In this document: piece by piece, positions 6,104 through 33,649 of the stretch
Layout of the letters: each line of letters starts with the position of its first letter
Position numbering within the stretch: position 1 is the stretch's first letter
Assembly: GCA_018398765.1 (NCBI GenBank)
Contig: JAHBMJ010000899.1
Coordinates: forward strand, 3,798-38,979
DNA: 35,182 bases
Direction: 5' to 3'
DNA from: Chromera velia
Lineage: Eukaryota; Sar; Chromeraceae
The notes under the pieces: model-generated
Databases searched by the model: none
Told to the model about the DNA's origin: nothing
The model's input: the letters and a program-made list of their open reading frames with translations, nothing else
Position numbers and translations under genes: made by a program

Positions 6104-6987
6104 TCAAGCAGTTCGCGTCAGGAAATTTACGAAGGATGAAGTGGCTGGAACGAAAGCGGGCAGCCCTGCCTTCCATTTATCTCCGTCCATTCGCAGAATG
6201 TACGCAGCCTCTCCCTGTCTCTGTTCTGTCGCTTGTAGAAACACCGTCTCTGTCTCTGCCAGGTTCTGCTCCATTTGTGCCGCTGGGGTTGCTTCCACCG
6301 CCTCTTTTTGCATAAGAAAATGAACAGAATCCCCCATTCTCGCTTCACCAAATCCCCCTGCATCCTTCAATGTAATTCTCTGTAAAACAACAAAAGGACC
6401 CACTCCCCCCTGATACCCCAAATCTTGAACCAATTCGTAATGACACCTCACCATCTTTCTTATCCTTCCATCCCCTCCCTTCTGCTGAATAATCTTTGCC
6501 GTTAAAATATATGCATACACATTCCCGTGACGCTCACCGACGTTCGCGGGCGCACTGGCAACAAGAAAGTGCAACGCTCTTTTCTGGGAAGAAGCAGACG
6601 GAGAACTGCCTGAATTCAAATGGAGGGAACATGAGGAAACTGCAAAACCGAACAGAGGGTTCCCCTCTTTTTTTGATCTCTGTACCGATTTCGGAGGCAC
6701 AATAGTCATCTTCAGCTTCTCCTCACTGAAGACCGTCACTGTGTCGTTCAATGGGTCTGCGTGCCACGAAAGGGAGGACCCTGAGAAAGGGGGTGAGGAA
6801 TGAAACACGAGAGATCCGAGCTTAGGTGAAGATGCCAACTTGACCTTCGTGTCGTTTGCCGTCACTCTGTAGACTACCACCACACCTTGGTTGTCGTCTG
6901 TTCCCGGCTCTCCTACTGCATCCGTGCATCCACCAATCCATTCAGACACGCAGACACTCAATGAATAAATTGAAACTGCTCTGCATG
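6104..6987 (-). CDS. FG-GAP / integrin-alpha-type beta-propeller protein, terminal exon
   Basis: A long reverse-strand exon opens after a candidate acceptor (TTTCCGCAG, exon start 6987) and runs to TGA at 6104. It encodes at least two FG-GAP-like blades: AVGEPGTDDNQGVVVVY near the start, and LFGFAVSSC ... FLVASAP followed by G-N-V-Y-A-Y. A weaker third blade is M-G-D-S-V-H-F then G-E-A-A-Y-I. FG-GAP repeats form calcium-binding beta-propellers in integrins and other extracellular proteins. A possible upstream exon is 7022-7065 (44 nt, phases compatible). The N-terminus is not identified. It is either an independent gene or the 3' portion of the dioxygenase gene just upstream on the same strand. 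Confidence 0.55.
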
Positions 6988-7205
6988 CTGCGGAAACTTA
7001 TGTGAACGCATGCATACAAACTGTCTGTGTAGGTCTGTTTGAGTCCGTGTGCTCGGCTGACCGACCTGCAAAAGACCAATATTCAAAAAGAGAGTCGACA
7101 GGGTGCGGATGAGAAAGGGTGGGTGCTGTCACGCTCCTCTATGTGCCCCCCTCTCTGTTTGCATGCGTGCGTGCTTGTCTTCTGGGTGTATGCATCGGAT
7201 GTATC

Positions 7206-7614
7206 CTAGCATGCAGCTCGACTCAAATGGACCCAGGCACAGACCTGCAAGAAGAGAGCAATCCGGAGAGAAGGCGAGGGAGTGACCAAAGAAATGGTCC
7301 GACCACGGGTCGTCCCTTCCACCCTTTCGGCGTCTCTGCACGTCTCTGAAATTGCCTTTGAAGTCTCCTTCTCCTCCAAATAAAGATTCACTGGATCGGG
7401 GTTCGCTGGGGGACGGGGAGTGGGAGGGGGAAAGGGACGCACGTGGCGAACCCGCCCCTTTTTCTTTCTCTGTCGCTTCTCTTTGATTTTGCTTGTCATC
7501 TCTCTCCTGGCCTTTGGCCTGCCCTTCGTTCTCCTCCCTTTGTTGCGTTTTAGACTGCACAGCTTCACCTTTTTCCTTTTCCTTGCTTCGTTTCTGCACG
7601 CAAGCACGAATGCG

Positions 7615-7652
<38 letters not shown>

Positions 7653-12969: not shown

Positions 12970-13791
12970 CAACTTCAGTTGCCTCGTCCTCTCTCTGTGT
13001 ATCTCCATGCTCCACTTCATGAAATGAAAAGGAAAGGCTGCTTTTCGAGAGAGGACGACAGTGCAGGGAAAAGATTTGCTTTTGAAAAAGTACGTAAGCA
13101 GCCCGTGCTTCCATCTCCCTTGCCGGTACGAATGCTCAAAAGAGAAGAAATGAAACTAACAAGTATGTGGGCATAGAATGCTTCCATTAAGGTCAGTAGT
13201 CAGTCAAAAGTAAGCTTTGTGGTTGGAAATAGACATAAGACGACAGGAGTGCTTGATTCAGGTGCAGAGGTCTCATTCATAGATGTGTCACTGACTTTGC
13301 ATGCAGATAGCCCAGTGGTTCCGGCTACCCTGGCGCTGTCAGCGGCTGGAGAGAGTGGGTTGAAGGTGCTGGGGGAGACCACGATCTCACTCTCCCATCC
13401 CAATAGCCCAAAGAAGAAATTCCCGCACACTCTCCTCGTCACAGCCGACACGGGGTACGACCTGGTCCTTGGACAAGATTTTCTTAAGCTCAAAGACCCA
13501 GTCGTGCAGTACTACTATAGAGAGGACAGGTTGGTTGTTGCTGATCTTCCTGTCTTTCACTGTTGGTACGATGACGGACGGAAGCCGATGCGTGTGGCTC
13601 CCCTCTGCCGCACAAAGGTCACAAAGCGTTCCCGTACGCTTCTCCGGGTGGATGTAGATGGAGTAGGAGAGGAAGAAACAGTCATTTTGCGTCAAAATTT
13701 TCCCCGAGTGCACCCAGGCCTTGCAGTCCCAGACCAGATAGTCACAGTGAGGGCCAGCGTTGCCACCATCGAAGTCCTGAACGTCTCGTAG
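12929..13791 (+). pseudogene. Retrotransposon aspartic protease region
   Basis: The pol frame (-1 relative to gag) is open from 12742 except for TAG at 13174-13176 and TAG at 13789-13791. The active-site motif L-D-S-G-A (D at 13255) sits in TTGVLDSGAEVSFIDVSLT, followed later by D-L-V-L-G-Q-D-F-L, the second conserved strand of retropepsins. The protease would cleave Gag-Pol and acts as a dimer. Confidence 0.85.
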
Positions 13792-14763
13792 CAAGATTTT
13801 CGGTTAGGTACAGAGTCTCTCCTTATTTTTGCTGAGCTAGCCAGCCGCGTTGCCTCAGTTACAGCTGTCACAGCCGTCACAACCAACGTTATGACATCTA
13901 CCCCACCGCAGAATCCCCCGCCGCCTCCTTCGCTTCCGAAAATTGATCTCTTGCATATCCCGCCTGAGGTCAGAGGAAGTTATGAATCCCTCCTCCGAGA
14001 GTATAGCGACCTCTGGTCTCGCTCTCGCTTTGATATCGGCGAATTGCGACTGAATGGGCAGCCGTACGAAGTCCGAATCCCCATAGGCGATGCCCCTCCG
14101 ATCAGATGGAATCAGGACAGAGTGCCCTACCACCAACACGACCATGTGAAGAAGAAGATTGAGGCAATGGAAGAGGGGGGTGTCATCCACAAGTCCAGCT
14201 CACCATGGGCTGTGCCCATTGTCCTTGTGAAGAAGCCTGATGGCACCACCCGTTTCTGCTTCGACTTCCGCAAGCTGAATCAGGCAACCAAACGTGATTT
14301 GTTCCCCCTCTCCCGCATCCAAGAGACCCTCGACAGTCTCGCAGGAGCACAGGTGTTTTCCGTTCTTGATTATACCTCCGGCTTCTTCCAGCTGAAGATG
14401 CACGAAGCAGACGCAGAAAAAACTGCTTTCGTGACTCCTTTCGGTCTGTATGAGTTCACACGCATACCGTTTGGGCTCGTAAATGCACCGAGCATCTTCC
14501 AGCGTGTGATGACGTTACTCCTCACAAGTTTGACCAGAGACATCGCCCTCGTCTACATCGATAACATCATTGTTTTCTCCCACTCGCACGCAGAGCATTT
14601 GAGGGATTTGAGGGAGGTTTTGGGATTGGTGAGGCAGGCAAACCTCAAGCTGAAGTTAGAGAAATCACACATTGCGTTGAGAGAGGTGGAGTATTTGGGA
14701 CATTCAGTCTCCTTCAGGGGGATCAGGCCGAGTCGAAAGAATGTGAAGAAGGTATTGGAGTAG
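13792..14763 (+). pseudogene. Reverse transcriptase domain, catalytic D to N
   Basis: Continues in the same frame. RT landmarks are [43 protein letters not shown] and [15 protein letters not shown]. The catalytic box reads Y-I-D-N at 14554-14565 where the family has Y-x-D-D, so one metal-binding aspartate is lost (AAC at 14563-14565, one G-to-A step from GAC). The frame ends at TAG 14761-14763, where the family has a conserved Trp. This RT should be inactive. Confidence 0.92.
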
Positions 14764-15279
14764 GAGTCCCCAAAAGACTGAAAAGAGCTGCGCTCCTTTC
14801 TTTGTCTCTACTCGTATTACCGCCATTTCGTTGCAGGCTTTGCGAGGTTGATGCATCCCCTCCATGAGCTGCTGAAACCAGCTGACAAGGAAGGCCGTCC
14901 CCTTCCCTTCCAGTGGGGGGAGGAGGCAGAGGTAATCTTTGCCGAATTGAAAAAACGCCTCACTACCCCCCGTATCCTTGCCTTTCCAGATATGAGCCGT
15001 CATTTCACCGTCAAGCCAGACACGTGCAAGGTCTCCGTGGGAGGTCTTCTCACACAAGAAGTCAACGGAAAGGAGGTGGTGATTGCCTATACGAGCAGGG
15101 CATTGAGTGCCGCCAAGAGGAATTACAGCCCAGTAGAGAGGGAGGCCTTAGGTCTTGTGTACTGCTGCCTTCAGTGGCGTTACTACCTGATTGGTGGACG
15201 CACGTATGCAGTCACCGATCACAAACCTAATCTGGCGATGGAGGATAGGAAAGTGACGAATGAAAGAGTGAGGAATTGA
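14764..15279 (+). pseudogene. RT connection and RNase H domain
   Basis: Same frame, with TGA at 14779-14781 and TGA at 15277-15279. ELRSFLSLYSYYRHFVAGFA is the RT thumb/connection. RNase H follows with D-T-C in place of the usual D-A-S, YTSRALSAAKRNYSPVEREA and VTDHKPN (conserved E and D present). The TGA at 15277 falls where the family has the Trp of the R-W-x-L-x-L-Q-E motif. Confidence 0.88.
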
Positions 15280-16632
15280 GCGTTGGAGTTGCAGGAATTT
15301 GGGCTGCGGTATGTTCACAAGTCGGGGAAAGCCCATACAGACGCAGACGCTCTCTCCCAAATGCCGCAGAAGCCGTTGCCTGTTTGTGTCGACAGTGGCG
15401 TCCCACTGTGCAAGCATTGCAACCAACCCGCAGACGGGAGCACCAAGATCTGGACAGGTATGGGGGCACTCATGGCAGGTGTGCACGGGCAGGCAGAGGC
15501 TGTACCACTGCAAGCGAACAAAGCGTTTTTGGACAGAGTCAGAGAGGAGTTGCCGAAAGATCCGGTGTTGGGCGACCACTACAGATATTTTGTGAAAAGT
15601 ATTGTGCCAATAGACAAGAGGCAGGTAAGGTAGGTGCTTTTGGAAGAGAGTGCGTTTGAGTTCAAAGATGGCCTGCTGTACCGGTTCGAGGGGAGAGGGG
15701 TAAAAAAAAGAGAGCAACTCGTTATGCCTAGGACGTGTCAGTCAACTGTGCTTATGATGGGGCATGATCACAGTTTGGGAGGTTATGCAGGGCAGCATCG
15801 GTTGGTAGACAAAACGTTGCTGCATTTCTGGTGGCCTCGATTGCGGACTGATCTGAGGGAGTGGGTTGTTTCCTGTCGAGAGTGTCAGGAGCGAGCGAAG
15901 CGTCTTCCCACCAGAAACCCACAGACAGTCCCAGTGCCTTCTCCTCGTCCATGGCACACGTTAGGAATCGACGTGTCTGGTCTTTTCCCAACCTCCCACA
16001 GAGGAAACCGATTTGTCCTCGTTGTGACAGACCATTTCTCCAAGAACGTCGAAACCTTTGCCTGTCCTGAGATGACAGCAACAGTCGTAGCACAGATTTT
16101 GGTGGATGAAATTTTCTCTTGGTATGGCCCGTTTGAGGTCCTGCTCTCTGACAGGGGGACGAACTTCCGGAGTGAGTTGGTGTTTGAGGTGTTGCGCATT
16201 CTGAAGATCAACCACAAACTGACCTTAAGATACCACCCTCAGTGCAACGGTCTGACTAAATGTTACAATCAGACCTGGGAGCAGGGGGTTGGGAAGCAAC
16301 TGAAGGCAGAGAATTCCCTTGACTGGGACCTTTACCTCCAGCCATTCAATTTCTCTTACCGCACTACCCCTCACGCCGAAACCCATCTCACTTCCTTTCA
16401 GCTGACGTATGGGTATGAGCCGACCCATCTGCTGCGAGTTGAACCTGTCTCCCCGTTGCCTACAATGACTACTACAGCGTCATCCGATAGAACAGACTGT
16501 AACTGGTTGATGCAGTACAGCAGAGGATGGAAAGATCAAGACAGAAGAGAGAGGAGAGGAATTCTCCACCGACGCAACCGAGATTCAGAGTGGATGATCG
16601 GGTTTTTCTCCGCAAACCGGAGAACCCGTTGA
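15280..16632 (+). pseudogene. Integrase (zinc finger and DDE core), catalytic E to K
   Basis: Same frame, with TAG at 15631-15633. It includes a tether, H-x4-H-type zinc finger residues (GHDHSLGGYAGQH ... CRECQ) and core residues D in GIDVSG and D in LLSDRGTNF. The third catalytic residue is Lys (AAA, 16258-16260) inside HPQCNGLTKCYN, where the family has Glu in a T-E-R-x-N context; one G-to-A change explains it. The frame drifts out around 16450-16520, and the C-terminal part continues in another frame. Confidence 0.9.
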
Positions 16633-17336
16633 CAGGGAGGAATGCAGGAAAACTAGAGGCGACCCATGAGGGGGTATACAAAATTGTTGCCAACCCAGAA
16701 GGACGGACATACAACACGGTGATCAGACGAGTGGGAGGAAAAGAGAGAGTCTCTGTGAGCACAGACAGGTTGGCACTTTGGAAGAAGATAGAGAACGTCA
16801 GAGTAGAAGGAAAAGAAACAGAGGTTCAACTTGAAGAGAAGGAGGAGAGATCGAGAACAGAAAGAGAGAGTGGAACGAAAAAAAAAGAGAAAGAGGGGCA
16901 GAGAGAAGAGGAAACGCGTGCGTTTGACAAGACAGATGCAGAAGCCAGTGATCCGTGCCCTTAGTGGCAGGTAGGTCCACATCAGCACCGCAAGACGAAT
17001 TTGTCTCCAATTGATGAGGAGGAGTCAAAGTTCGAGTCTGAGACTTCTTTTGAGGAGGAAGAGAAAGAGAGTGAACAGGAGGACAGTGAGGAACTAGAAA
17101 GTCAAAAAGGGAGAAAGAAGGCGCCAAGATCGAATTCGAAGAAGGGAAAAGGAAAGTAGAAAGCAGTGCCCATTGGAATTCAAATAAGTCAGGAGAAGGA
17201 AGGAAAGACCTTCTACCATGTTTCCTTCTCTGATGGCACTTTTCTTTGGTTGAGTGAAGAGGGGGTGGACACACCCGCCCTCGTTAAAGACTTTGAGAGA
17301 AAGAAGGAAGCCGTTTTGCATGGCCGGGTAGAATGA
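16503..17336 (+). pseudogene. Integrase C-terminus with chromodomain-like tail
   Basis: Third frame, open except TAG at 16962-16964 and 17157-17159, ending TGA 17334-17336. First comes the GPY-type module: [23 protein letters not shown], then R-L-A-L-W. A very acidic and basic linker follows. The tail [20 protein letters not shown], then T-P-A-L-V-K-D-F, resembles a chromodomain (aromatic strand, W, acidic turn, closing helix). In chromoviruses this module directs integration to marked heterochromatin. Confidence 0.65.
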
Positions 17337-17508
17337 ACTGTTGATTGCTCCATGACATGAAGTGATGACTGCGCTGTTTTAATCAATTCGATCCATCATT
17401 CCTTTTTCCTGCCCTTCTTATGTTTTTCCCGCCCTTCGTATCATGTGGTGCGGCCACGCCAATGGTGGTTCTTCGATTGCCGGTATAGGTGGCTGAGATT
17501 GGTGAAAG

Positions 17509-18440
17509 GTGGAGAACATAAGAGCCGAAATAAATGAAGGAGGCTGCTGGAAGGTGTGGAGGAGACTCGGTGAGGAAGACAGGAGGGCAGCACTAAGAAA
17601 AACAAAAGACAGCATGACGACCCAGCAGGTAGCAGAAGGTTTCAAACAAACGTACGAGCTGCCAAAGGAAGAGAAAGAAGAGAGAAAGAGGGAACAAGAA
17701 GGAAAAACGACAGTGAGTAGAGCGATTAAGGAAAAAGGATGGCACATAGCAGAGGAAAAGGAGGTAAGGAAGGCAATGAAAAGAGCAGGCAACCCCAGAA
17801 AGGCCGCTGGGAAAGATGGAATGCCCCCAGAAATGCTGAGAACGATGGAAAAATCGACTGAGCTGGTATCTTTGTATGTTTTGTTAATTAATGTTGCATA
17901 TTGTTTTGGCTGGTGGCCGAAAGGGTGGAATGACTTGCCGGTGACGGCTCTTCCAAAACCAGGTAAGTCACTCGCACTAATTGGGGGATGGAGGGGAGTG
18001 TACCTGGTGGTAGCAGATGCGAAATGGGGGGATATGATCATGAGAACAAAGGTGGAAAAGGAAGCCAGACAGACGCCATGGCAGTTCGCATACAAGAGAA
18101 AGACAGGCACATGCGATGCAATTTTTCTTTTGCTGTTCGTTATTGCTCGAATGGAAGTGCTCAGTGTTGCTTTTGTTGACTTCACACGGGCTTTCGACGA
18201 AGTGAGGCTGGAAAAGTTAAAAGAGAAATTGAGAAAGGCAGGGGTGGAGGAAGGCCTAATCAGATGGGTTGAGGCCTCTCTGGAAAAAGTGAGGGCACGG
18301 GTGAAGGGAACGAGCATGTGGTACCTGGAAGACAAAGGACTCAAGCAAGGAAGTCCGAGCGGCCCTTCCCTTTACTCTGTATACACACATGACTTGCCAG
18401 AGGAAGTAGGAAAGAGNATCAAGAGAGAAAGAAGAAGTTA
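17509..18440 (+). pseudogene. LINE reverse transcriptase, N-terminal motifs
   Basis: RT motifs in order: A-G-K-D-G-M-P-P-E-M-L, LPVTALPKPGK, QFAYKRKTGTCDA, motif A VAFVDFTRAFDEV and motif B GLKQGSPSGPSLYSVY. Motif C (the Y/F-A-D-D box), expected 30-60 residues on, is absent: the reading changes frame at a lone N (18417). Confidence 0.88.
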
Positions 18441-19420
18441 GACTGGGGGAGATAGTGATGAAAGAAGCAAGAGAGCAACCCTACCTGGGACTAGTCCTAT
18501 CCGCCGACTGCGACCTAGAAACCATGATGAAAGCACGGTCAATCAAAGCAGAGAGATACATGCAGGGACTGATGGGGAAGATAGGAAGGGAGGGAGGGAT
18601 TCCACCCGCTGATTGCTTCAATATATTTAAACAGACAGTGCGCGCCATATGGTTGTATGGATGCGAAATCCATGTATACCCAGATAGCGCGTATGCAGAA
18701 TTCGACGAGAAGCAAAGGAGATTTGTCAGGTTTGTTTTGCGTTTGAGAAAGAAAGAGAATTGTGCCACGCTGATGATGGAAGGAGGTTTTATTCTGATTG
18801 ATCTCAAAGTGGCTTTTAGAATGATCCGGTGGGCAGGGAAGGCTTTAAAGGAGAGAAGAAACGAAGCGGTAGGGCAGGCAATCCTTACATGCCTGAGAGA
18901 GGGGATAGAGAACGAAATGGGGGGGGGGAGAGGAATGCATCCTTTTCACCTTTTCCCTCATCTGAAACAATGTGCACAGACACTCTACACAGACAGAGGA
19001 ATGCACCTTTTTGTAAGAGAAAGACTAAAAGGAAGCGTAGGGCAGAGAGGAACACAGGTAGTTAACGAGAGAGTGGATAGGATAGAGAGATGGCTGCTGA
19101 AGAGAACAAAAAATGAGCTAGACGAGAAGAAGAGAGAGGCGTTTGCACATAGAATAGAAAGAAACATAAGAGAGAAGAGCAGTCAGGAGAAGGCAGAACT
19201 AACAGGAGTGATGATGGCTGACGTGCACAGAAAGGTCTCAAATGGAAACCGTCTCCACCTTTCTTTGTTTGAAGACAGAGCAGATAGAAAGGTTGGCTCA
19301 ACAATGAAAATAGACAGAGAGAGAATAGGGAGAGCCCCTTTTTGCTATACGAGAGTGGCGCCGCGATCAAAACACAGGAGAGAGCAGCATGCAGGGTGGG
19401 AGACAGGGCTGTGGCTGTGA
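18422..19420 (+). pseudogene. LINE thumb and post-RT region
   Basis: The frame resumes after the N with V-R-L-G-E, then QPYLGLVLSADCDLETMMKA, the strand-and-helix region that normally follows motif C and the primer-grip. A long helical, basic segment follows. Another frame change is needed near 19320-19345 to reach the C-terminal zinc knuckle. Confidence 0.75.
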
Positions 19421-20154
19421 CTCAGGGAAAAATTCCGGTAAGGAGGGGAGAGAAGGTGCCGTTACAGAAAAGGATGTGCCAGTTCTGTCGAGGGTGGTTG
19501 GGAATCGAGGTGGTGAAAGATGAAATCCATTTGGTGACAGAATGTCCTGTTTTTGACAGAGAGAAAGCAGAAATGTTTAGAAAGATAGAAGGGAAACGGG
19601 ACAGCAAGATGGAAGAAAAAGCCAGAAAGGCAGCCAGAGAAAGAGAAGGGCTCAACAGAGAAGAGGGAAAAAGGGACAACTCGACGCTTTTCTATTTTCT
19701 GTTGAATGAATGTCATGCCGGAGTGGATGAGTTTTTGGGATGGGCGTCATTCAGACGGAGGGTGTTTGAGGAGTGTCCAGGACGGTACGGACACATAGAG
19801 GGAGACACTCTGGCGGCCAGATATGCAGGAATCACCGGAAGGCAGCGGGCGATCGAGAGACTAACAAAAGAATATGAGGAGACAATTGATAACTTAGAGA
19901 CGACCGAAGGAGCGTTAGGGTGGGGAAGGAGGGAGCCGCAGAAGAAGATTGATAAAGCAAACAAAAAGAGCGAGGAAGCCCAAATCACATGCCGTTTCAG
20001 ATCGATTTTCAGGCCGGAAAGCCAACGCGGATCCAGAGCCGTGGCTCGAACAACGAACAATCATGCAGCAGCGGCCAGGGCAACAGACTCTGGCGGGCCC
20101 CGAGGGCGGGGTCTGATACCTCAGCTTAGGCTGGGGAACGCCCCGCCCTGCTAG
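19342..20154 (+). pseudogene. LINE C-terminal zinc-knuckle region
   Basis: Contains C-Q-F-C, then G-I-E-V-V-K-D-E-I-H and T-E-C: CX2CX13HX4C, the C-terminal knuckle of RT-encoding LINEs. A basic helical tail follows. The ORF ends at TAG 20152-20154, about 70 bases before the TCAA tail. Confidence 0.8.
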
Positions 20155-21129: not shown

Positions 21130-23147
21130 CTATGAACCTCCGCCAATAGACGCCCCAATCTCTGCCTGCAGCAGCCTTTGTACTGCTTGGACGAGAACGA
21201 AATCATTAGAACGAATTTGCAGACGGGCTCTTCCCTTGAGCTGACCCTCGCCAACTTCAAGCCTGCAGTTATTTGGTGGATATATGAGTGAATGAATGAA
21301 TGCAAGAATGACTAAGCCGATGAAGCAAAGCCCCCGACAGTCCAAAACAAACACAACTAATACAGCTCACTCACCCACTCACACACGCATGGATCCGTTC
21401 ACAGATGCCTTTACGCTCAGGGATGTGCGGAAAAGGCGAATGGAAGAAAACCGCATATTTTTTTTGCACATGCAGTTTTTGGCAGCGGATGAAAAAGGTA
21501 TTGGGAAACTCGCCCCGTCAACTGCCCCAGAGAAGAAAGGTCTAGAAAGAAAGAAATCCTGCTAACCAACCAACCTGACAAGAACCAGTGCCCCCATCTC
21601 GGGAGTCACCAAGTCCCCCCCGTCTCCCGCATTCCCCACCGCCCCTGCTGTGGGAATGCTCAGAGAGTTCACTGCCGAGGAGGGGAAAACGCCCGCGAAG
21701 AGAAGAGCGCTGGGGTTCGGGTCGAGGCCGTGGAGGAACTCGAGGGCCCCTCCCTGCATAGAAATAAGTCGACGCAGTCCATATCGATGCAGTAACAGAA
21801 AGAAAGAAAGAACACCATCTCATTCATGTACACACAATTTCACATCCATCTCGGGGAGGTTTGGAGGTCGTCCATTGAGTGAAGAAAAACTACCCGCTTG
21901 CTTGGGATGCAAGACCGCACACATTCGTATCACGCGCCTTCCTTCTTTTTTTGCACTTCCCATGCAGAAGGGGGGCAGACGCACACAAAATCCACCAGAG
22001 AAAGCGAGGGCCCGTTTGTGGTGTCACTACAGAAACGAAGGAAACCGAGTAGATCAGTTGAACCTTCGGTGACAACACGCTGCCACACAGAATGAACGTC
22101 ACTTACTCAACCAGTGTCAATATCTACTGAACTGTCTTTGTGCAAACAACGAGCTGTACAGCAATTCTAGAAAGCTCAAATGACGAAAATAATCCTACAC
22201 AGAAGAATGTTCTAGGGAGACCCAAAGTAAAGCAAAGAATGCCCCGAAGGGGAGGGAGGAATCGAAACACAAGGGAGAGATACGCGGTACAGCGCACTCA
22301 GACTGACGAGTTTGCACGCGACTGCAAGGTGCATCATGCTGCTCGCGTATCTCTGTGCAAGGTTGACCACCACCGTCCGCTCGTGCAAGAGGAACTGCTG
22401 GCTCTTCCAGACGCGGGAGAATTGGGGACCTGAAAGCTCTTTTGGACCCTGCAAAAAAGAAAAGAAAAGAAGCGTTGCGTTGCCTTCAGATATTCTTAAG
22501 GCATGCGTCACAGAAAAACGGAGGCAGAGAAAGAGAGAGCGCAGAAGAAGTCGGTAAGAACCAATTTCAACAAGAGAACGAAATCATGTCGCGGAACCTA
22601 TCAATCAATCAATGTCACGTGATTTTCATCCTGTCAATCGTCTGCCGTGCCATTTGCTTCGACGACTCTACGGGTGTTCACACTGACCGTGCATGGGAAC
22701 GAATCAAGTCCATATATTAATGAAAGGAGAGACTGACCATGAACTTGCAGACTGCTACCGGGAGGGTCAACTTCACCTCCTTCGGACTGTTGTCGGGCAA
22801 CCTGGACACACGAACAAAGAGGAGGGGGGGATGGGGGGTGCGAGGCGAAGAAAAGGTCAAGAATTCTGGGAGAGTAACGGACTTGTACGTTCAAAGTCTT
22901 TTGCCTCCGAGCTTCTCTGGTATCTGCTGTGCCCTTTTTAATTCTGTTTTTTTCTTTTTTGGATCGAGAGCTAAATTTCTCTCAATCCCCCCAACCACTC
23001 ACACACGTCCAGAAGTGGAGCACGAATGAGGAAGTCTGACTGGGAGAGAGAGAGACGAGACAAACATAGACGAAAACTGAGGGGCAGCGCGGGAACTGGG
23101 CCAACAGACCGTCGGACTTATCGGTGCAAACAGACAGACAGACAGCC

Positions 23148-23180
<33 letters not shown>

Positions 23181-23634
23181 GGCAGACAGACACAGCCGAA
23201 ACCCATACAACAGGAAGACTGACTGACAGGTAGACAATTTTGATGATTGGATAGTCCGCGAAGGGCGCGTGACACCTCACTTTCACTTGCTGCACGCACT
23301 CAGTAAGGAAGACGACCGAGGAAAGCGGAGAGAAACGCCGTTCGATGGAGCAGACAGCACGCCGAGTGGGACCAGCACACAAAGGGTACCCAAAGAAAAC
23401 GAAATAATCAAGAAGGATGCAGAAATGAACACCGGCAGACGGCCGGAAAGGGAGGTAGGAAGGAAGAGACGGGGGAAAGAAAAGACAGGTGGAACGAAGG
23501 AGAAATGTGAGAGAAGAAAAGAAAAGAAGGAAGCTCGGACGAATCGAAGCGACCCTTTACGGCTTGCCCCAAAGAATCTCAACATGTCCCGACGAGCAAC
23601 AGGCGACCTCAACTGCGACAGACCATCTCGATTC

Positions 23635-23720
<86 letters not shown>

Positions 23721-24424
23721 GAGAGAGAGAGAGAGAGACAGACACACACGTACCTGCACCACCTGTTGCCTTGCAAGCACAGTGGGTGCCACAGGAGAGG
23801 GGGCCATGACGAGCAGCCCGTCGGGGTTGTTGGTGAAGATGGACGACCTGAAGCTATGGAGCTCCCCTCTCGTCTTGTTTCCAAAGTAGAGGTTCAGGTC
23901 ACCCCCCACATCTACATAGGAGGCTTTGACACCAACCTGCACATGAATGCAGAGAGGTCCATGCGGGGTGGAAATAGAGAGAGTTGTTCAATCGAATTGC
24001 ATAGCATTGAAGCATTTTCTCACCTCTTTTCCTGGATGGGATCTCTTCATGCCCACTCACAGGGAGGAAAAAGGCAAAAACATAATTGAAAAAGTACACC
24101 CGTCAGTCTTCGCTCTTTTCTCATCTCTTCTGTTGTCTCACTGTTCCTTCCTGCGCACTCGCACACCTCCTGTAGTTCTTTTTCTTCTCTCACTTCTCCC
24201 TTTCTTTTTCCCACATGCATCCTTGAACATGACGGGAAGAGCTGCAGGGAAAGAAGTCCATATATAATGAGACATCGAGGCATACACTCACCCAGCACAC
24301 CGAGAAAAGAAAACAGGAGAACAAGAAAGGTACACACACAGTTGCCTTTTCGTCTTCCCCCCCCACCTGTAACGACTCATCCTCAAACAGCACCGCGTCG
24401 TTGTGGAGAATTAAGTTGCGAAAT
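21130..24424 (-). CDS. Exons 19-25: alpha-adaptin-like appendage
   Basis: Exons 24424-24367, 23936-23754, 23289-23228, 22801-22738, 22448-22308, 21753-21575, 21262-21130, all in phase. Sandwich part: NDAVLFEDESLQVGVKASY, LNLYFGNKTRGEL, QQVKVRCHAPFADYPIIKI, VKLTLPVAVCKFM. Platform part: LSGPQFSRVWKSQQ, GGALEFLHGLDPNPSALLFA, VRLEVGEGQLKGRARLQIRS, closing with an amphipathic helix. These match, in order and spacing, the alpha-adaptin ear (N-x-V-L-F-E, Y-G-N-K-T, L-P-V, R-W-K, D-P-N-P, L-R-L-E). The Trp of the R-W-K motif and both downstream Arg, known contacts for DPF peptides, are kept. There are two subdomains of about 270 residues, unlike the single gamma ear of GGAs. Confidence 0.85.
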
Positions 24425-25766
24425 CTGCAGGCACAAGAAGCAGCATATCTATTCATCAGCATCTATTTTTGATAATCGAATGGCACGAACAAAAACTGAA
24501 GGACCAAATCCAATCGCTGAAGGAGCATTAGAGGCACACGTCTTTCGACCTCCTTCAAAATTCCCGTCTGCAGAACAACCGACACGCCCGCCGATCCAAT
24601 TTCTTCGCTCGCAACGTCCGACCGTGCGAGTTTGAGCGTGCACGATAGCAGCATGTGCACACATGGATGAGTATGCACCCAATTAAGAAAAGCGTTGCCC
24701 ACCTCTCTCCCTTGGGACCCCCTCCCGCAAGCGCCCCCCCAGCCCCCGTCCCAAAATTCTCCGGCGACTCTCTCAGGGGACCCACTGCCCCCGTGCCCAC
24801 AGCTGCCGTCGGATAACTCGGGGGGGCAGGCAGATGCGAGGAGGACCTGTAAATGTCCTGACGAGCCGCATATCGTCCAGGCACGACCGCAGAAGCATAA
24901 GGACCCGGATTCATGTCCATTCCCCCGCCCTGGTCATCCCAGAGTTCTGCAGCAGGAGGGGCGTCAATGGCGAGGTCTCCCCTGTGGGTCTGGGGACGGA
25001 AAGACGCCCCCCCGTCTCCTGCCGCCCCCCTTGCTGAACCCGGCCAGTCTCGTCCCCTCATGCCCCCCGCAGATGCTGTGTGGGGCCGCAGAGAGTTCAG
25101 AGAGTTCTCGAGGGGGGAATCTGACGGCGCTGCGGCAGGGTCCTGCAAGCAGGCGTGGGCACAAACCAGAAATAAATGGAAATAGGTATGCATTATTGTT
25201 GCATCAGTGTGAAGAGGTGGGTTCTCCAGAGCATATGGAAGTGTAGAAGGAGATTCGGACACTCATGAAGAAAGGAAGAGGGAAAGGAGAGAGGAACGTT
25301 CGACGAGTTATACAAAGGAGGAAATACAGAAGAAGCGTGACTTCCGAGCGAAAGAAAGCACAGAAGTACGGCGGAAAAGCGAGAAAAACTTCCAGCTCTC
25401 GCTCACACACAGACATAGAGACAGAGAAACAAGAAAGAGGTAAGTCTAACCTGAGAATTGAAGAGATGTTTCAGTTGCCTCAATTCCTGCAATCATTCAG
25501 TCCTCATTGGACAGGAAAAGAGATGGAGAGAACAGCAGCAGGGAGAGCAGGCTTCACTCTCATCCCGCCTTATGCCCCTCCGTCGAAATCAAAACACATA
25601 GACTCAAAATACAAAATCCTTGTATTAATAACAAGACATCACAGAAAACCTCTCCCGCAAACATGAAGAAATAAAAAACCCCGGGCTGAAAGACTCCTCA
25701 GAAAACTCCCAAAAGCTGCGACCCCCAACCTCCACACCCCAGAAGGAGAGTCACCCTCCCCAAGCA

Positions 25767-25852
<86 letters not shown>

Positions 25853-27875
25853 CGAACGACTCAACCTATCGATCCATCAATCTGCCCCCTTTCCGATCCG
25901 ATCAGCCCTCTCTCGTTCTTCCAAAAAGAAAACCCACATACGTTCTTCGCTTCCCTCTAAAGCCCTTTCTCGATCTGACAGACCTTTTGTGTCTTCGTGT
26001 GTGCCACATTCAGGTCCAGAAGCTCTCGGTCGAGGTCAGAGATCTTTAAGTCCGCCTCTGCACATGCAAACAAGTGCCGCATATTGTCAGTGAACAGATA
26101 TAGAAGGTCAACAAGCAGAGATGCTCAAATCGGCCGTTGCAGGAGGAAGGGAAAAGAGAAGACACAGGAGACAGGCCGTCACCGGCGTTCTCCTTCCAAT
26201 CCGCTCCCCCCTCGAGCTTTCTCATCCATCAATTCACTCACTCATTCATTGATGCAGCCGTCCACCCACAGACCGACGGACCGTTCAGACTCTCCGTGAG
26301 TGCAGAGGCTCGTGCGCTCTCCTTCATCCACATGTCCTTTGCGTGTGCGACCATCTGCTCCTTCTCCTTCAAATTCGCTTGGAGCCTCTCGATGGTCCCC
26401 ACCTTCTCCTGAACGCATACACGTGGGCATTGATTGTTCTGACGTTTATCCGTACATAGTGACCAGTCACTGTTTCAGCAGGGGGTCCAACTTTACAAGA
26501 GGAGCAGACAACGCAAAAACAGACTTCACCCGCTTCAGTCAGACAACTTAGCCAAACGCTCTTCCTTGACCCCTGCAGGCATAAATAAACTGACATTCAT
26601 TTCTTCCTCCAGAGCGTCGATTCTGCCTTCCATTTTGTCGATGTGCTCCTCTGCCCTCCTGCTCCTCTCCTTCCAAAGATCCAACTCCTCTACGAACTCC
26701 CTCCGCTCTGCCGCCATCTCTGCTGCCGTCTCGCTGCGGACCTGGGCCTGCATGCATGCATGCATGGAATGCATCACAGTGCATGGGTCGGGCAGTCAGA
26801 CAGATCGGGTATCTATTATCCATCAATTCGTGCGATGATCAGCATCCATGCATACGCCTCGCTTTCTCTCCGTCTTTCTCTTCCTTCTCCCTCCGCGCGT
26901 GTTCGTGTCCTGTGCGCGGGCCAATGCGTCAAGAGTGTCTATCGATGTGCACTGGCATGCCAAACATGTCTCTCTGGCCCTTTCCAATCTGATGTCTTCC
27001 CCCCTGCTCCTCTCTGCTTTTTCGATCGCTTTCCAACTCAACCGACTGTTCCTTGTGATATTAGAACTTCAGACCAGAAACAAAAGGCAATTTTTGGACC
27101 GAGGCGCTCTCTGCCACCCACACACCAACGACAAGCCAATTAACACCGTAATTTACATTGGGAGGGAACCTACCGACCTCAATCCGCGGCCTGAGCTCAG
27201 CCTCAACGCTGTCAAGTTCTCTTTGGAGGCCCTGGGAGACATGCAGACAAGAAAACGACATGGATTCTTTTTTGTTGTTGTGCAGGTCAACTGCCCGACA
27301 GATCGATAAGCGCGTATTCGTGATCGCTCACACGAATGCTCGATACAAAGACACTCATACACACAGAGGAAGAGAGAAACGAAGAGGATGAGAAGCAAAA
27401 AGGAGGCAGATATTCCAATGATGTCTATGCCGATCTCCGCGTGCCCACGGAGTGAGTCATGCTTGGCTCGCTAAAGATCAGACCGACAAAAGACGGGCAT
27501 TACTCAAACGATGTTTGAATGCGTCAAATTTCAATCCACAAGAAGATGCATTTTCGCATCTCAGAGTCAGTCATCCCTTTTGCAATCGACCCCCGACCTT
27601 TGCGTGCTCCCTCAGTCGCCCTTCACTCATCGTGCTTGGGTCCGGTGCCGCCCGTACCGCATGTCTGCTGGCAGCCCCGATGCTGCGTGCATCCCAGCCT
27701 GAAGGGGCGGTCGCGCCGTCTCCCTTGACTGCCCTCTCGAGCTCGTCTGTGTTGATGCGACCGAAACCCCCAACGCTCCCCGAGATCCCGTTCGCGTTCC
27801 CTTCTGCTGTTGGGGGGAAGGGGGGAGGCCCAGAGGCCCCGAAGGTCATGGAGGTCGCTGGACGCTGCTGCGGCC

Positions 27876-27906
<31 letters not shown>

Positions 27907-30900
27907 AGGAAAGAGAGAAAGAGAGAAAAGAGAGAAAAGAAAGAAAGAAAGAAAAGAAAGAAAGAAAGAAAGAAAGAAAGAGGGCATGCAGAGACGATGA
28001 ATACACAACGGCTCCAATTCTCACGTCCACTTCTTGTAGGGACACAGGGCAGCACCACATCAACTGAAAAAGAAAGAGGAAAAGAAGGAGAAACAAAAAC
28101 TTCTTTGGTGCATTGAGAACAGAAAAAACAACCAACTTGAGAAAGTTGACTGACCTTCAAGCCTCCCTCAGCTCCCCGATCTTCTCCCTCCACTCCTCCT
28201 CCAAATCGGGGCACCACCGAATCCCCTCCAAGTCCCCTTCCAGGCTGTCCATGTCCATTCTCATCGAAACCAAAACCAGAGGACAAACCGCCACCACCGT
28301 CCTGCAACAACGTGAGCATTTTTTTGATTTTTGACTTTTGTCGCTCCAACGGAATCTTCGTCATGAAATCATTTGGGCACACTGTGGGCGGAAAGAAAAA
28401 CCTGCCTGGCTGGAAAAGGATCACATGGGGGGTTCTACTTCGTTCTTCCTGTGTTCGCTCTCTCAGACTTCACTGTCGTGGGCACTTTCTGTGGCGTTTA
28501 CAGACAGAGGCAAAAGCAACAGCATAAGAAAAAAGTGAAGCGCAAATTCCTCTCTGATCCAAGAGGCGTTTCCCCCCGTAGGAGGAAGAGACGCTCTTTC
28601 CGTGATTTCACTATCCATATCCATATACTGAAAACAATGTGTGCATGTACCGACTGACCCCTGCCGCCTTTTTGCTCTCAGCACCGAACGCGGCGCTCCC
28701 CGCCGCCCCCAGTCCGAAGGCCGCAGTCGCCCCAAAGGGGTCCGCCCCCGCCGCCCCCCCTGCCTCAGCAGGAGAGGAGGAGGCCCCAAACGCCCCCGCA
28801 GCAGCTGGGGGGGCACCTGAGGTTGGAGGGCCCCCGAAAGCGTCGAAGGCACCCCATCCTGCAGACAGGCAAGGAGTGTGAATTAATTGAGATTCATTTT
28901 TCATCCTGTCTTCCAAAAACTCGTCTCAGCAGTGGGCGTCTGCCCTGGAGACAGGTCCTCCGTCTCTTTCCTCTCAACACCAAATACCAGATCAGATGCC
29001 TCAATTGGCAGATCAATATGTACGGAGCTCACATTCCTCATTTCTCTGCTTCTCCACCCTGATTTGCCGACAAAAGACGAGGCCCTCTCCAGCAAGGAGT
29101 GCTCATTACGCATGAAAGTGCACTCTGACGGAGAAAAAGAACCCTCTCACGCGGACAACTTTGACTGACCGCTGCTCAAATCTGCCCCCCCCGCCCCCCC
29201 TCCAGGAGGGCCTGTCGCATCAAAATCGAACGCCCCTGCCCCTCCGTTTGGAGACGCCTGCTGCGTCGCTGTCACCCCTGCTGCAGGTTCATCAAACCCA
29301 AACGCCCCTGCCCCTGCAACATCACCCCCTCCAGCAGAATCCCTAGCGCCTTTCTTCTTCCGAGATTTTGACGTCGACGTTCTTCCACCACCACTCGTGT
29401 CCATTCCTCCTGCGTCGAAGGCAGAAAGCACACCCGCGCCGCCAGTGGGGTCTCCAAAAGATGCGGTGGGACCCACCGCGGCGGCGCCACCACTGGTGGC
29501 CGCGTTGGCAGTCGCTCCTCCCCCTCCGCCCGCCGCCGCATTTTCCTCAGCCAGCCATCCAAAGGGATCGTCTGGATTCCCAGTCGTGGGAGGGGCCGCG
29601 AGGTCGTCAAACACGTTGGCGTCGCCCTGAGGCGACGGGGAAGGACCCTGCCCGCCGCCACCAGCAGCAGCTGCCGGCTCAGGGAATCCACTGGTGGCGC
29701 CCCCGAATGCCCCAAACCCAGGGGAAGGCTCTCGTGCGGGGGGAGACGCACTGATGGGAGGAACCGGGGGGTCCGAAGCCGGCATCGTTGTGGGGGCGTC
29801 AAACTGCAATCAATTTTCATGGTTGCAGATAAATCTTCTTCGTACGCATTTTCAACTTTGAAAAGGAGACAGAAGAGGCTCCGGAAGATGACTGTCAAAA
29901 TACGAAAAACAAAAAAAAAATGAACAGTCACGCTACTCCGTCAAGCAGATTGAGAATGCAAACTGAGAAAGAAGGGCAAGAACAGAAGACGAAAAACACG
30001 AAATGCAAGTCTGCTGACCCCCACGGCAGCCGCAGAAGCTCCGAGAGCGTCTCTAGAGTTCCGTCGGACCCCGGACCCCGGACTGGCACTCGGCATGGCC
30101 GGTGGGGGGTCAATGCTCATCCCCGGGGGCATTCCGGAGCCCCCCCCAGCCCCCCCCACAGGACTTGGACTTGCTGGTTGTGCGGACGGGGAGGTTGGTT
30201 GGAATCCCCTCCGTGCCCACTCCTCATACGCTTCTATGGCCCGACTAATGGTGTCTAGGGTCTGAAGACACAGAGAAGAGAGAGAGGAAATGAATGGCTT
30301 TAAAGGGAGACGAGTCAAATGAATGTGATCGGCAAAAAAAAGTGTTAGCGCATTCTCAGAAATGAGGGACGAGTGCTGGTGATCAGAAAAGAGACGGCAG
30401 CACCCTTCTTTGGAGGGAAGAGATCAGCCTCTTTTCGCAGACGCAGAAAGTGCCAACACATGAGTACATGAATGTCCATCTGTCTACCTGTGTATACGAA
30501 AGAGAAAATCTTAGCCAGACACGAGTGTATCTCCTTCTCTCTCTGCCCACTCCACGACGGACGTTTGTGACCCTGTCGAAATCCTCCAGCCTCCCTTCCT
30601 CTACAGCAAGTTGCGCCTCCTCCTGGAGTCCCCCGTTTTGGAACCTGTGATGCGTTTGAAAAGAAAATCTCATCATGAACAAATGGGACATATTCGTACA
30701 GACATGTGTACCCACATACTGCGAGGCACTTCAAGGAGAGCGGAAGGAGATGGTATCCATCTACGATTCGCCCTTCTTCATTGGGGTGGGTCTGGTAAAT
30801 TGCACATTACAGATCACAAAACGACGAATCTGACAGTCAATCAATCGCTCACAATAGGTCAGAACACGGGCATTTGGCCGACCAGACAGACTACTCGTGT

Positions 30901-33649
30901 CTTTCTTTTTCCCTCTTCTGGTTGACCAGGCAGATAGACAGACTGAGTGACTGACGCTTTGGCCTCGTTGACTAAATTCTCAACAGTTGACTTCTGCTCT
31001 TCCCCTCCACCTGCACGTAAGACGCGCGTGTGGACATATACATACATACATACATACATACATGCATATGTACACTCATACCTGCATAGGCAGTCACGAA
31101 GAGTACGAGAGAGACAGAGAAAGGAAAACTTGCCTTGGCGAGGAGTGGGGTGAAGAAGCTGAAGGAACTTCAACGAACAAATTGCCGTATCATTGGGAAT
31201 AGCCAGAAAAAAAGAAACACAGAGGCACCTAGATACATGATGAAAATAGCCGCAGTACAATTGCAATAGCTCCCGCTCCCTTGAAACACCTCCTGTCCCC
31301 ACTTTCTTTACCGCTCCCTCCCTGACTCTCTGACTAACTCACTCGAAGTCAATTGGTTGATCCGGTCACAGGTGGACTGTGCCACTGCAAAGGAAAGTCA
31401 AAAAGCAGAGAATGAGGGGGGGGGGCGTAAGAAGGACAAGTGCACATAGACTTTTGCATACTTGCTTCTCTTCTCGTGTGGTTGCCGTCTCCTTTTCAAT
31501 GCCCTTCTACAGAAGTGGAGAAACAGGAGGAGTGCCCAAGGAGTTCGACGCCAGATGGCTCCAAAAGCACTCAAGAGGAAGAATGCACAATATCATGTTT
31601 TCGGAAACCCCAACTACCGTGCCGGTCACCCCTTCATGTAAACTCACTTGCTAGCGTCTCTTCCAATCCCCCGCCAGGCCGTCTGCCACCCCCCCCTCCT
31701 CCCCCTGCAGGAGGCGGGGGTGGCGGTGGTTGTCCCCCTCTCCCTCCTCCACCGTCTCCTCCAAAAGCACCCGGAGAAAAACCCAACGAAGAGGACGAAA
31801 AGCCCCGCATGCCCCCGCCTCCCTGCTGCTGGGCGCTCTCTGGAGGGGGCTGAATGCCTGCAACAGCAAAGTGCTCGATCGCATGTGGGGACAGACACAG
31901 AAAAGAAAAAGGGAAAAGACCAATCGACAAACAACACATGTGCGAACAGAGCTACGGAGAATCAAATGAAAGTATTGACAGTGGGAAGTTGGGCACAAAC
32001 CACTGACAAGTAAAACAAAAACGAACACAGACACCAGGACAAACACAGAGACCAGGAGCTTTTCACCCAGGCAGCCTGTGATCCACATTCCCATTCCATA
32101 CCCTCTCACCCCCCCTCCACCAACTCTCTGTACAGACACAGACAGAAAAATAGATAGAGAAAAAAAATGTGTGTGAGTGAGAGAGAGAGACAGAGATCAT
32201 CCTTCTACACACCTTCCCGCTCCAAGACATCCCACGCCTCCTTCAGCTGTCTCCCATTGGCGGTGCTGGGCGTTCTGTTCATCAACGCCTGCTTGTTTGT
32301 TCGTACACACAAGCAAGGAGAGAATTCGAATGAGGCAAACACATGGAACGTCATCTTTCCTTCCTTCCCAGCTTCCTTGGCCCGTTCACTGCTTGATGTG
32401 CTCTTTCAAAGAGACAAAGACATGCAGACACTTCACAGAGAGGCAGATACACGAGAGAAGGATTCACGCAGTGAGGGGATGGAGAGGCAGAGGACACGGG
32501 GCGCAAATCTACATTCAGCCTTCCTCTCATATAAGGGCTGCCTCTTCTTTCTCTCGTCGTTCTTTCGCACCTGCCCGACTGAGCTGTCGCGTAACATTTG
32601 CTGCTATGTTTGCAAAGTGTCCACTTGATCGCAGTAAGCTCGGCTAGTCCATGGACTGACCCAGTGGTGCAACGTGCCGGCCGCCATGTCTGTGCAGCTC
32701 TTTACCTCCGCATCAGATACCGAAGACCGGAACAGCGTGCTCCGTCTCCGGTTCTGCAATCATTCAGTGATGCAGAAATTGAATTGACCTCTGTCCTGGA
32801 TGGTGCACTCACAAACGGACGGCTTGTGAAACGATGAAGAGAAAGAGGGAGGCCACCGAATTGCTGGTGAAGAAGCGCTGAGTGACTTGCATTCCAAAGA
32901 GCAACAGAAGAGAGTCACCAACCTTCAACCTGCGTTTTGTCCTCTGAGAAAATCCCATATAGCACCACACCAAGACGACACATGCATGCACGCCCACGCA
33001 CCCCCCTACCTTTGCAATCCTCGCGTAGTCCTGGAGGAGTTTGAGGACCTTCGTGTCGATTGCCGCCTTGGCTGAGCTCTCGTCGATGTCCACCAGGCTT
33101 TTGGACAGCTGCGGGTGTCACAACAGAGGTGAAAGCAGCAGAGCGAGAGTACAGAGAGAGGGGGGAGAACGATGGGGAGTGCATGAGGCAGGAAAGGGTA
33201 GTCGGCACGGCTATTGACAGGTAGCCAGGCTCAGAGACGGGGAGACAGAGGGGTGTCGGGAACGGGCAGAGAGACGGCAGTTTGCAGGATTTGTCTGCTG
33301 GTGCATACTCGGGGAGAGTGGAGGCAATAAGACAAGAGACGACCAGAGACAGGAAGGGACAAGGGACCGATCATTTGTGGAGAGATACACACGAATAGGG
33401 TGGGAAACGAAAGAGAGCGGTGAGACAGGAGTTTTTCTGATTCCAGCTTACCTCCATGGCAAGAATTTTGCTCGCAGGTTTTTCATTTTTGTCTTTGAGG
33501 ATCGTGTGGATCTGCTGGAATGCCGCCTTGGCTGCGTCGTTTCCCACGGTGATGACCTCATTGACAAGGTCCTGGAGTTGGGCCTCGTAGAGACTGCGAT
33601 TTCTCGTGGCTTGCTGTACAAGCTCCGTCATGCGAGAGCCCCCCGACAT
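21130..33649 (-). CDS. VHS-GAT-hinge-coiled coil-alpha-adaptin-ear adaptor protein
   Basis: One gene of 25 exons, ATG at 33649, TAG at 21130-21132. Exon lengths sum to 3,972 nt and every splice joins in phase, giving 1,323 residues. Domains: VHS-like (1-150), GAT-like (205-290), Ala/Gly/Pro-rich hinge with DPF-type motifs (290-768), coiled coil (769-904), second linker (905-1050), alpha-adaptin-like appendage (1051-1323). VHS and GAT bind cargo, ubiquitin and Arf in endosomal adaptors, and the ear binds accessory proteins. The architecture copies GGA proteins but with a two-part alpha-type ear. The AP-2 alpha trunk is absent, so this is not the AP-2 subunit itself. A break into two genes is possible only if a start and stop lie in the hinge; none is needed. 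Confidence 0.7.
23131..23192. repeat. (CAGA)n microsatellite in intron
   Basis: Tetranucleotide run with a few interruptions, between exons 21 and 22 of the adaptor gene. Confidence 0.9.
23635..23740. repeat. (CA)n/(GCAC)n/(GA)n compound microsatellite
   Basis: Lies in the intron just after exon 20. In transcript sense it is CT, then GT, then GTGC, then GT repeats beginning within about 15 bases of the 5' splice site (GTACGT). Confidence 0.95.
24703..25142 (-). CDS. Exon 18: second linker
   Basis: A 440-nt exon, low complexity (Ala, Gly, Pro, Ser, with Asp and Arg), joining the coiled coil to the ear. SPLENSLNSLRPH and AAELWDDQGGG stand out; the W-D-D string may be another short peptide ligand. 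Donor GTGGGC, phase 2, matches the ear's first exon. Confidence 0.6.
25765..25849. repeat. (AGCC)21 microsatellite in intron
   Basis: About 85 bases of pure AGCC repeat within the 840-base intron between exons 17 and 18. Confidence 0.95.
25984..27867 (-). CDS. Exons 13-17: linker and coiled coil
   Basis: Exons 27867-27598, 27231-27178, 26747-26595, 26408-26282, 26057-25984. Exon 13 is a low-complexity linker. Exons 14-17 read as continuous heptads: GLQRELDSVEAELRPRIE, ERREFVEELDLWKERSRRAE, HIDKMEGRIDALEEEMN, IERLQANLKEKEQMVAHAKD, ADLKISDLDRELLDLN. About 135 residues, likely dimerising. Phase-0 joins across four small exons support them. Confidence 0.7.
27876..27981. repeat. (GAAA)n microsatellite; splice pyrimidine tract
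   Basis: Over 100 bases of GAAA-type repeat; in transcript sense (TTTC)n, ending about nine bases before the acceptor of exon 13, so it forms that intron's pyrimidine tract. Confidence 0.95.
28155..30261 (-). CDS. Exons 9-12: hinge with DPF/FxFD motifs
   Basis: Exons 30261-30019, 29803-29170, 28858-28659, 28301-28155. After the GAT helix the sequence is Ala/Gly/Pro/Ser-rich and disordered. Motifs include NPDDPFGWLAEE, GADPFGAT, GAFDFDATG, AFGFDEP, AFDAFGG and ANVFDDLAAP. DPF and FxDxF-like peptides are the classic ligands of the alpha-adaptin ear, and the same polypeptide carries such an ear. A Lys/Arg cluster (KSRKKKG) sits in exon 10. Confidence 0.65.
30563..31857 (-). CDS. Exons 5-8: Gly/Pro linker and first GAT helices
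   Basis: Exons 31857-31648, 31384-31343, 31010-30956, 30644-30563. Exon 5 is Gly/Pro-rich (a run of seven Pro) and ends L-E-E-T-L-A. Exons 6-8 encode AQSTCDRINQLTS, E-N-L-V-N-E-A-K-A, QEEAQLAVEEGRLEDFDRVT. The last leads into exon 9's TLDTISRAIEAYEEW, matching the third GAT helix pattern (x-x-N-D-x-L-x-x-x-x-x-x-Y-E). Exon 8 could end nine bases earlier (donor GTCACA) without changing frame. Confidence 0.6.
31036..31064. repeat. (CATA)n microsatellite in intron
   Basis: Seven tetranucleotide units in the intron upstream of exon 7. Confidence 0.9.
32213..33649 (-). CDS. Exons 1-4: VHS-like domain
   Basis: Exons 33649-33452, 33108-33010, 32753-32706 and 32288-32213, donors GTAAGC, GTAGGG, GTAAAG, GTGTGT. 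Helical pattern TELVQQATRNRSLYEAQLQD, then AAFQQIHTILKDKNEKPASK, then KVLKLLQDYARIA, ending L-K-E-A-W-D-V-L-E-R-E-G-I-Q-P-P-P. VHS domains end with a similar helix, an L-R-x-x-G-[IL]-x-F/P-P segment. The domain is somewhat shorter than the usual 140-150 residues before that helix. Exon 3 (16 residues, phase 0 at both ends) is the least certain. Confidence 0.55.

Follow-up and report, generated by a model that had tools for sequence, protein, structure and literature searches.

A probable chromerid KAE/KIC4 orthologue in Chromera velia joins predicted VHS and GAT domains to an AP-2 alpha-type ear

A stretch of 35,182 nucleotides of Chromera velia (assembly GCA_018398765.1, contig JAHBMJ010000899.1, positions 3,798 to 38,979; hereafter the window) carries on its reverse strand a long spliced gene whose product ends in an ear of the AP-2 alpha type. 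Which kind of adaptor does this gene encode, and has its arrangement of domains been described before? A previous reading, made from the sequence alone, had proposed a GGA-like adaptor with a domain order found in no described protein. Our analysis indicates that the fusion of VHS-GAT with an AP-2 alpha-type ear is real, but not new. The gene is most probably an orthologue, of chromerid type, of KAE/KIC4, which serves as a monomeric adaptor for endocytosis in the K13 complex at the micropore, the pore through which malaria and Toxoplasma parasites feed; the kinship with KAE/KIC4 is judged by published descriptions. The coordinates of all features are collected in Table 1.

Read from 33649 to 21130, the reverse strand forms a single spliced gene, in which 26 exons join in phase into 1350 codons with one terminal stop. 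All of the 25 introns have GT donors and CAG acceptors; the donor is GTCAGT in nine of them, a preferred form here that departs from the usual GTAAGT/GTGAGT. The spliced translation (1350 amino acids, aa) is identical to a database protein, P0001 (UniRef, EukProt and MetaClust), which is possibly itself a gene prediction. A model of 1347 aa, used in part of the searches, had three residues fewer at the end of exon 8, and a donor 9 bases downstream restores the exact identity. The sequence-only reading was slightly low in its counts (25 exons, 1,323 codons), but the span, the strand, the order of domains and the ear were correct, and the joining of reverse-strand exons into one gene has been borne out.

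The C-terminus is an ear of the AP-2 alpha type, as the sequence-only reading had proposed. Pfam PF02883 (Alpha_adaptinC2) matched with an expectation value (E) of 4.7e-9 and 36.9 bits, against a cut-off of 27.6; PF02296 (Alpha_adaptin_C) gave E 0.035, and 0.0014 when the ear was scanned alone, below the cut-off both times. In the PDB, the sequence search matched residues 2-196 of the ear (274 aa) to ears of AP-2 alpha at E 1e-18, across both subdomains; seven of its eight matches at E up to 10 were AP-2 alpha, the other being a carbonic anhydrase (0.023). Eleven mouse alpha positions that we take to be motif-binding sites, with the numbering that we assume for them (713, 718, 722, 727, 740, 742, 762, 782, 836, 837 and 840; mouse letters from the PDB match), were compared; four further positions (905-920) fall outside the aligned mouse stretch, and so outside the comparison. 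Seven of the eleven are identical (718, 722, 727, 742, 782, 836 and 840), the differences being at 713, 740 (F to Y), 762 and 837. No Pfam match to Adaptin_N (PF01602) was found in the protein, which indicates that there is no AP-2 trunk.

At the other end, the predicted model of residues 1-160 has the VHS domain as its best structural match in VIA-align, with TOL9 at the top, followed by a tight group of TOM1, UVSSA, Hrs and GGA1. Other searches of this part brought little: the PDB sequence search with residues 1-161 returned one irrelevant match (thioredoxin, E 0.59), the same search with alignment A2 gave none, and Foldseek with the VHS-GAT model ranked designed proteins first. In VIA-align, too, the rows of that model for the bundle were designed proteins with no GAT entry, and for this reason residues 219-303 were modelled separately. 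Alone, they are predicted to form a GAT bundle, weaker than the VHS, with GGA1 and GGA3 as best matches. The stretch ahead of the bundle (residues 163-217) is rich in glycine and proline, has no predicted helices and lies mostly under 50 in the predicted local distance difference test (pLDDT); therefore, no Arf hook is seen.

Between the two ends, the hinge contains two DPF matches, one WxxF match and 14 of the 17 FG pairs of the protein, all as raw pattern counts, and the motif scan found no FxDxF. Two clathrin-box-like raw pattern matches, at residues 71 and 1305, each lie within a folded domain. The sequence of residues 784-931 is coiled-coil-like, its coiled-coil-type Pfam matches being only weak and below the cut-off.

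Are there relatives with the same arrangement? Protein database searches returned eight different proteins, namely P0001, a second trunkless protein (P0002) and six AP-2 alphas with Adaptin_N (P0003-P0008); further protein searches for additional KAEs returned only their own query. P0002 is an EukProt protein of the gregarine Polyplicarium translucidae; its alignment with P0001, at 29% identity, spans both proteins from one end to the other, with the same order of domains over the whole length. It differs in a diverged hinge and a longer N-terminus, and bears no functional name in its source. Its name is in the style of a transcript assembly, and therefore this order is probably carried on one transcript in the gregarine. 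Identity between the two proteins is 52/160 (32.5%) in the VHS, 26/86 (30.2%) in the GAT, 42/139 (30.2%) in the coiled coil, and 45/113 (39.8%) and 52/134 (38.8%) in the two halves of the ear (36% for the ear in BLAST); it is 21.8-24.8% in the linkers and hinge (hinge, 91/417). P0002 has two FG pairs in its whole length, and it is identical to mouse alpha at 7 of the 11 motif sites, differing at 713, 762, 836 and 837. Pfam VHS reached only E 0.1 in P0002, and Pfam GAT found no match there. Within the coiled-coil region, block 783-810 has 12 of 27 positions identical to P0002, and block 870-900 (26041-26357, reverse strand, exons 16-17) has 14 of 31, against 42/139 for the whole region; the latter block is a possible partner-binding site, as far as sequence conservation can suggest one.

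The arrangement also has counterparts in print. KAE of Toxoplasma gondii (TGME49_272600) has a conserved alpha ear, no similarity to AP-2 alpha otherwise and no trunk, according to the passages that describe it (PMC10105704, Nat Commun 2023). The same passages place KAE with K13 at the Toxoplasma micropore, report that its ear binds Eps15L via WxxF, and trace it across the Myzozoa that have K13, dinoflagellates and chrompodellids having two paralogues. KIC4, its homologue in Plasmodium falciparum, is described in passages of a second paper as VHS-GAT-hinge-ear; these passages also link the K13 endocytic complex, to which KAE/KIC4 belongs, to susceptibility to artemisinin (PMC10718435, PLoS Pathog 2023). 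The claim that no described protein has this order does not stand in view of these two proteins, KIC4 with its VHS-GAT-hinge-ear and KAE with its trunkless alpha ear. Both halves of the finding are thus already in print, VHS-GAT being reported for KIC4 only in the passages concerned; among the matches listed in the open-licence literature, no title dealt with a chromerid KAE with VHS-GAT.

An N-terminal VHS and a GAT after it, as described for KIC4, are found here in the predicted models, together with the C-terminal AP-2 alpha-type ear, the lack of a trunk in the same protein and a separate AP-2 alpha gene. KAE is likewise large and trunkless, with a terminal AP-2 alpha-type ear and a separate AP-2 alpha in the genome, and it has coiled-coil motifs, to which the coiled-coil-like region here may correspond; its last residue is 1672, compared with 1350 here, and its paper mentions in those passages no conserved domains besides the ear, whereas VHS and GAT here come from structure prediction (PMC10105704). 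KIC4 shares the VHS, the GAT, a hinge-like stretch and an ear with a second subdomain. However, its last subdomain is assigned in the passages on it to the beta-adaptin type (PMC10718435), and both halves of the ear here match AP-2 alpha ears.

The genome of C. velia (177.8 Mb in 4040 contigs) was searched for related loci. AP-2 alpha is encoded separately on contig C3182 (L012/L013), where the pieces of the trunk are followed in the right order, on a single strand, by two weak matches to the ear (best E 0.15 and 7e-4). The platform exon of this gene can still be recognised (L013:6104-6235, E 7e-4). The ear of Toxoplasma AP-2 alpha is reported as degenerate in the passages on KAE (PMC10105704), and the division of labour between AP-2 alpha and KAE may differ here from that in Toxoplasma. 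On contig C3130, a second trunkless open reading frame (ORF), L011, has an ear that matches AP-2 alpha ears of the PDB at E 0.0013 and is 28% identical to the main ear over 185 positions; no Pfam family matched this ORF, and its motif sites are identical in 3 of 11 positions (782, 836 and 840). Its sequence makes it a candidate for a second paralogue of KAE (KAE2). A search of the genome with PF02883 picked up two places, both weakly, but not the ear encoded in the window, and is therefore insensitive to split exons. An ear-like place at C706:6250-6381 is weak (PF02883, E 0.015), and a further adaptin-trunk-like place (E 3e-15) lies at C3633:48284-48919 (L016). Kelch repeats occur at 59 places in the genome; inspection by eye only, covering up to two ORFs of at least 200 aa per locus at 12 loci (one had none) and the ORFs of four kelch regions and of three of four BTB_2 places, revealed no BTB-kelch protein that could be K13.

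A tree of eight ears was built with P0001, P0002, L011 and the AP-2 alphas of mouse, P0003, P0005, P0007 and P0008; P0004 and P0006 were left out, and Toxoplasma KAE and KIC4 were not among the rows. The three trunkless ears split from the five AP-2 alpha ears at 96/96 support, L011 forming one long branch of unsure position. Because the published descriptions fit, AP-2 alpha is separate as in Toxoplasma and the trunkless ears form this split, we favor the assignment to KAE/KIC4. Several observations weigh against it. Neither Pfam VHS nor Pfam GAT gave a match, even at E 10, in the model of 1347 aa, in its first 156 residues or in the 87-residue GAT piece; the VHS model hardly separates TOM1 from GGA1; the GAT structural scores stay below the caution line of the tool; and the gene structure comes from the genome sequence, P0001 being perhaps only a gene prediction. 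The proposed VHS and GAT therefore stood in the predicted structures, a VHS fold and, more weakly, a GAT-like bundle, and not in the profiles. The domain layout and the partial conservation of the motif sites are supported, as is one gene of the form VHS-GAT-hinge-coiled coil-alpha ear with no AP-2 trunk.

TOM1/TOL proteins have VHS followed by GAT and no ear, and VHS-GAT with no Arf hook in view, as here, is their layout. The VHS model fits TOL9 best, then TOM1, and a protein of the KAE family could accordingly serve at endosomes as a ubiquitin adaptor similar to TOM1/TOL, where its ear would recruit AP-2 accessory proteins. We consider this improbable: Toxoplasma KAE lies together with K13 at the micropore, as its description states (PMC10105704), and the GAT model of the present protein prefers GGA. 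Membership of TOM1/TOL itself is contradicted by the ear.

Somewhat less probable still is a true GGA whose ear was replaced by an alpha ear and which remained at the Golgi or endosomes with Arf. The order VHS-GAT-hinge-ear is common to GGA1-3, the N-terminus of the present protein models as VHS-GAT, and its GAT model is closest to GGA1/GGA3, so that the name GGA-like was right in this respect. GGA1-3, however, have a gamma-type ear of a single subdomain, an Arf hook and no coiled coil, and here the ear is of alpha type with a platform subdomain, the stretch ahead of the GAT has no predicted helices, with no Arf hook seen, and the VHS model is nearest to TOL9. The relatives are moreover placed, in the passages on KAE, at the plasma-membrane micropore (PMC10105704). 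GGA identity was rejected, since the ear is not of the gamma type.

That two neighbouring genes, one for VHS-GAT and another for the coiled coil and ear, were fused in the gene model only is very unlikely: the poor conservation of the hinge and the genomic origin of the model would allow it, but the 26 exons run in phase to one terminal stop, the gregarine protein, whose name points to a transcript assembly, shows this order within a single reading frame, and so does KIC4 as described (PMC10718435). Hardly credible is an AP-2 alpha gene that has lost its trunk exons, or in which they were overlooked, as the two-subdomain ear with most motif-site residues in common would suggest, for AP-2 alpha has an Adaptin_N trunk and no VHS-GAT, whereas this protein has no Adaptin_N match and an N-terminus that models as VHS, and trunk and weak ear exons lie in order on C3182; AP-2 alpha identity was rejected on the lack of a trunk and the separate gene.

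Elsewhere in the window, Ty3/gypsy-like ORFs at 13177-16964 contain a reverse transcriptase (6.3e-32), an integrase zinc-binding domain (3.2e-13), an integrase core (2.1e-8) and a weak retroviral-type protease (E 0.0093, below the cut-off). In the span 17506-20154, which carries a non-LTR-like reverse transcriptase ORF, the ORF at 19288-20151 had no Pfam match. Open frames at 6104-8789 (reverse strand) may belong to another spliced gene; the 297-aa frame among them (6104-6997) had no Pfam match.

Table 1. Positions of the gene, its parts and other features (window coordinates unless a contig is named).
Feature	Position	Strand	Remarks
Whole coding region	21130..33649	-	26 exons, 1350 aa; translation = P0001
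VHS domain (predicted)	31844..33649	-	residues 1-160, exons 1-5, 8 predicted helices
GAT three-helix bundle (predicted)	30208..31669	-	residues 219-303, exons 5-9
Gly/Ala/Pro-rich hinge	27598..30201	-	residues 306-783
Coiled-coil-like region	25451..27231	-	residues 784-931; better conserved blocks 783-810, 870-900
Second linker	24703..25142	-	exon 19, residues 932-1078
AP-2 alpha-type ear	21130..24424	-	residues 1078-1350, sandwich then platform subdomain
Exons 1-5	33649-33452, 33108-33010, 32753-32661, 32288-32213, 31857-31648	-	
Exons 6-10	31384-31343, 31010-30956, 30644-30563, 30261-30019, 29803-29170	-	
Exons 11-15	28858-28659, 28301-28155, 27867-27598, 27231-27178, 26747-26595	-	
Exons 16-20	26408-26282, 26057-25984, 25486-25451, 25142-24703, 24424-24367	-	
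Exons 21-26	23936-23754, 23289-23228, 22801-22738, 22448-22308, 21753-21575, 21262-21130	-	
Ty3/gypsy-like long terminal repeat (LTR) retroelement ORFs	13177-16964	+	Pfam
Non-LTR-like reverse transcriptase ORF	17506-20154	+	RVT_1 1e-9
Second trunkless ear ORF with coiled-coil-like stretch	C3130, L011:1947-3329	+	5' part off contig

How would a KAE/KIC4 orthologue of this build work? From the biology of TOM1, GGA and STAM, the VHS-GAT half would read ubiquitin or another partner, coupling cargo or ubiquitinated adaptors to the network of the ear. The coiled coil may make a dimer or bind another collar protein. By analogy with the experiments in Toxoplasma, as far as the passages on them go, the protein would sit in a plasma-membrane pit inside the K13 collar, and its ear would recognise WxxF-type motifs in Eps15-like proteins, having taken over this task from AP-2 alpha (PMC10105704).

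What our analysis adds is the VHS-GAT half in a chromerid and a gregarine, the alpha type of the ear, and another trunkless ear, which has diverged. It reconciles the two descriptions of 2023, each of which stressed a different half (the ear in KAE, VHS-GAT in KIC4). As the order VHS-GAT-hinge-coiled coil-alpha ear is present in both a chromerid and a gregarine, this layout is suggested to be older than Plasmodium, perhaps older than parasitism. We propose tentatively, as a serious possibility, that KAE was a fusion of a ubiquitin-reading VHS-GAT with an AP-2 ear even in the common ancestor that chromerids share with apicomplexans, and that it arose when a copy of the AP-2 alpha ear was joined to a protein resembling TOM1 or GGA. 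If this is true, the VHS-GAT half would be the ancestral state, the adaptor at the micropore would amount to an ESCRT-0-like handle that carries an AP-2 ear, and ubiquitin would mark cargo, or signal assembly, within the K13 complex. C. velia is not a pathogen, and the VHS-GAT half could be tested in it.
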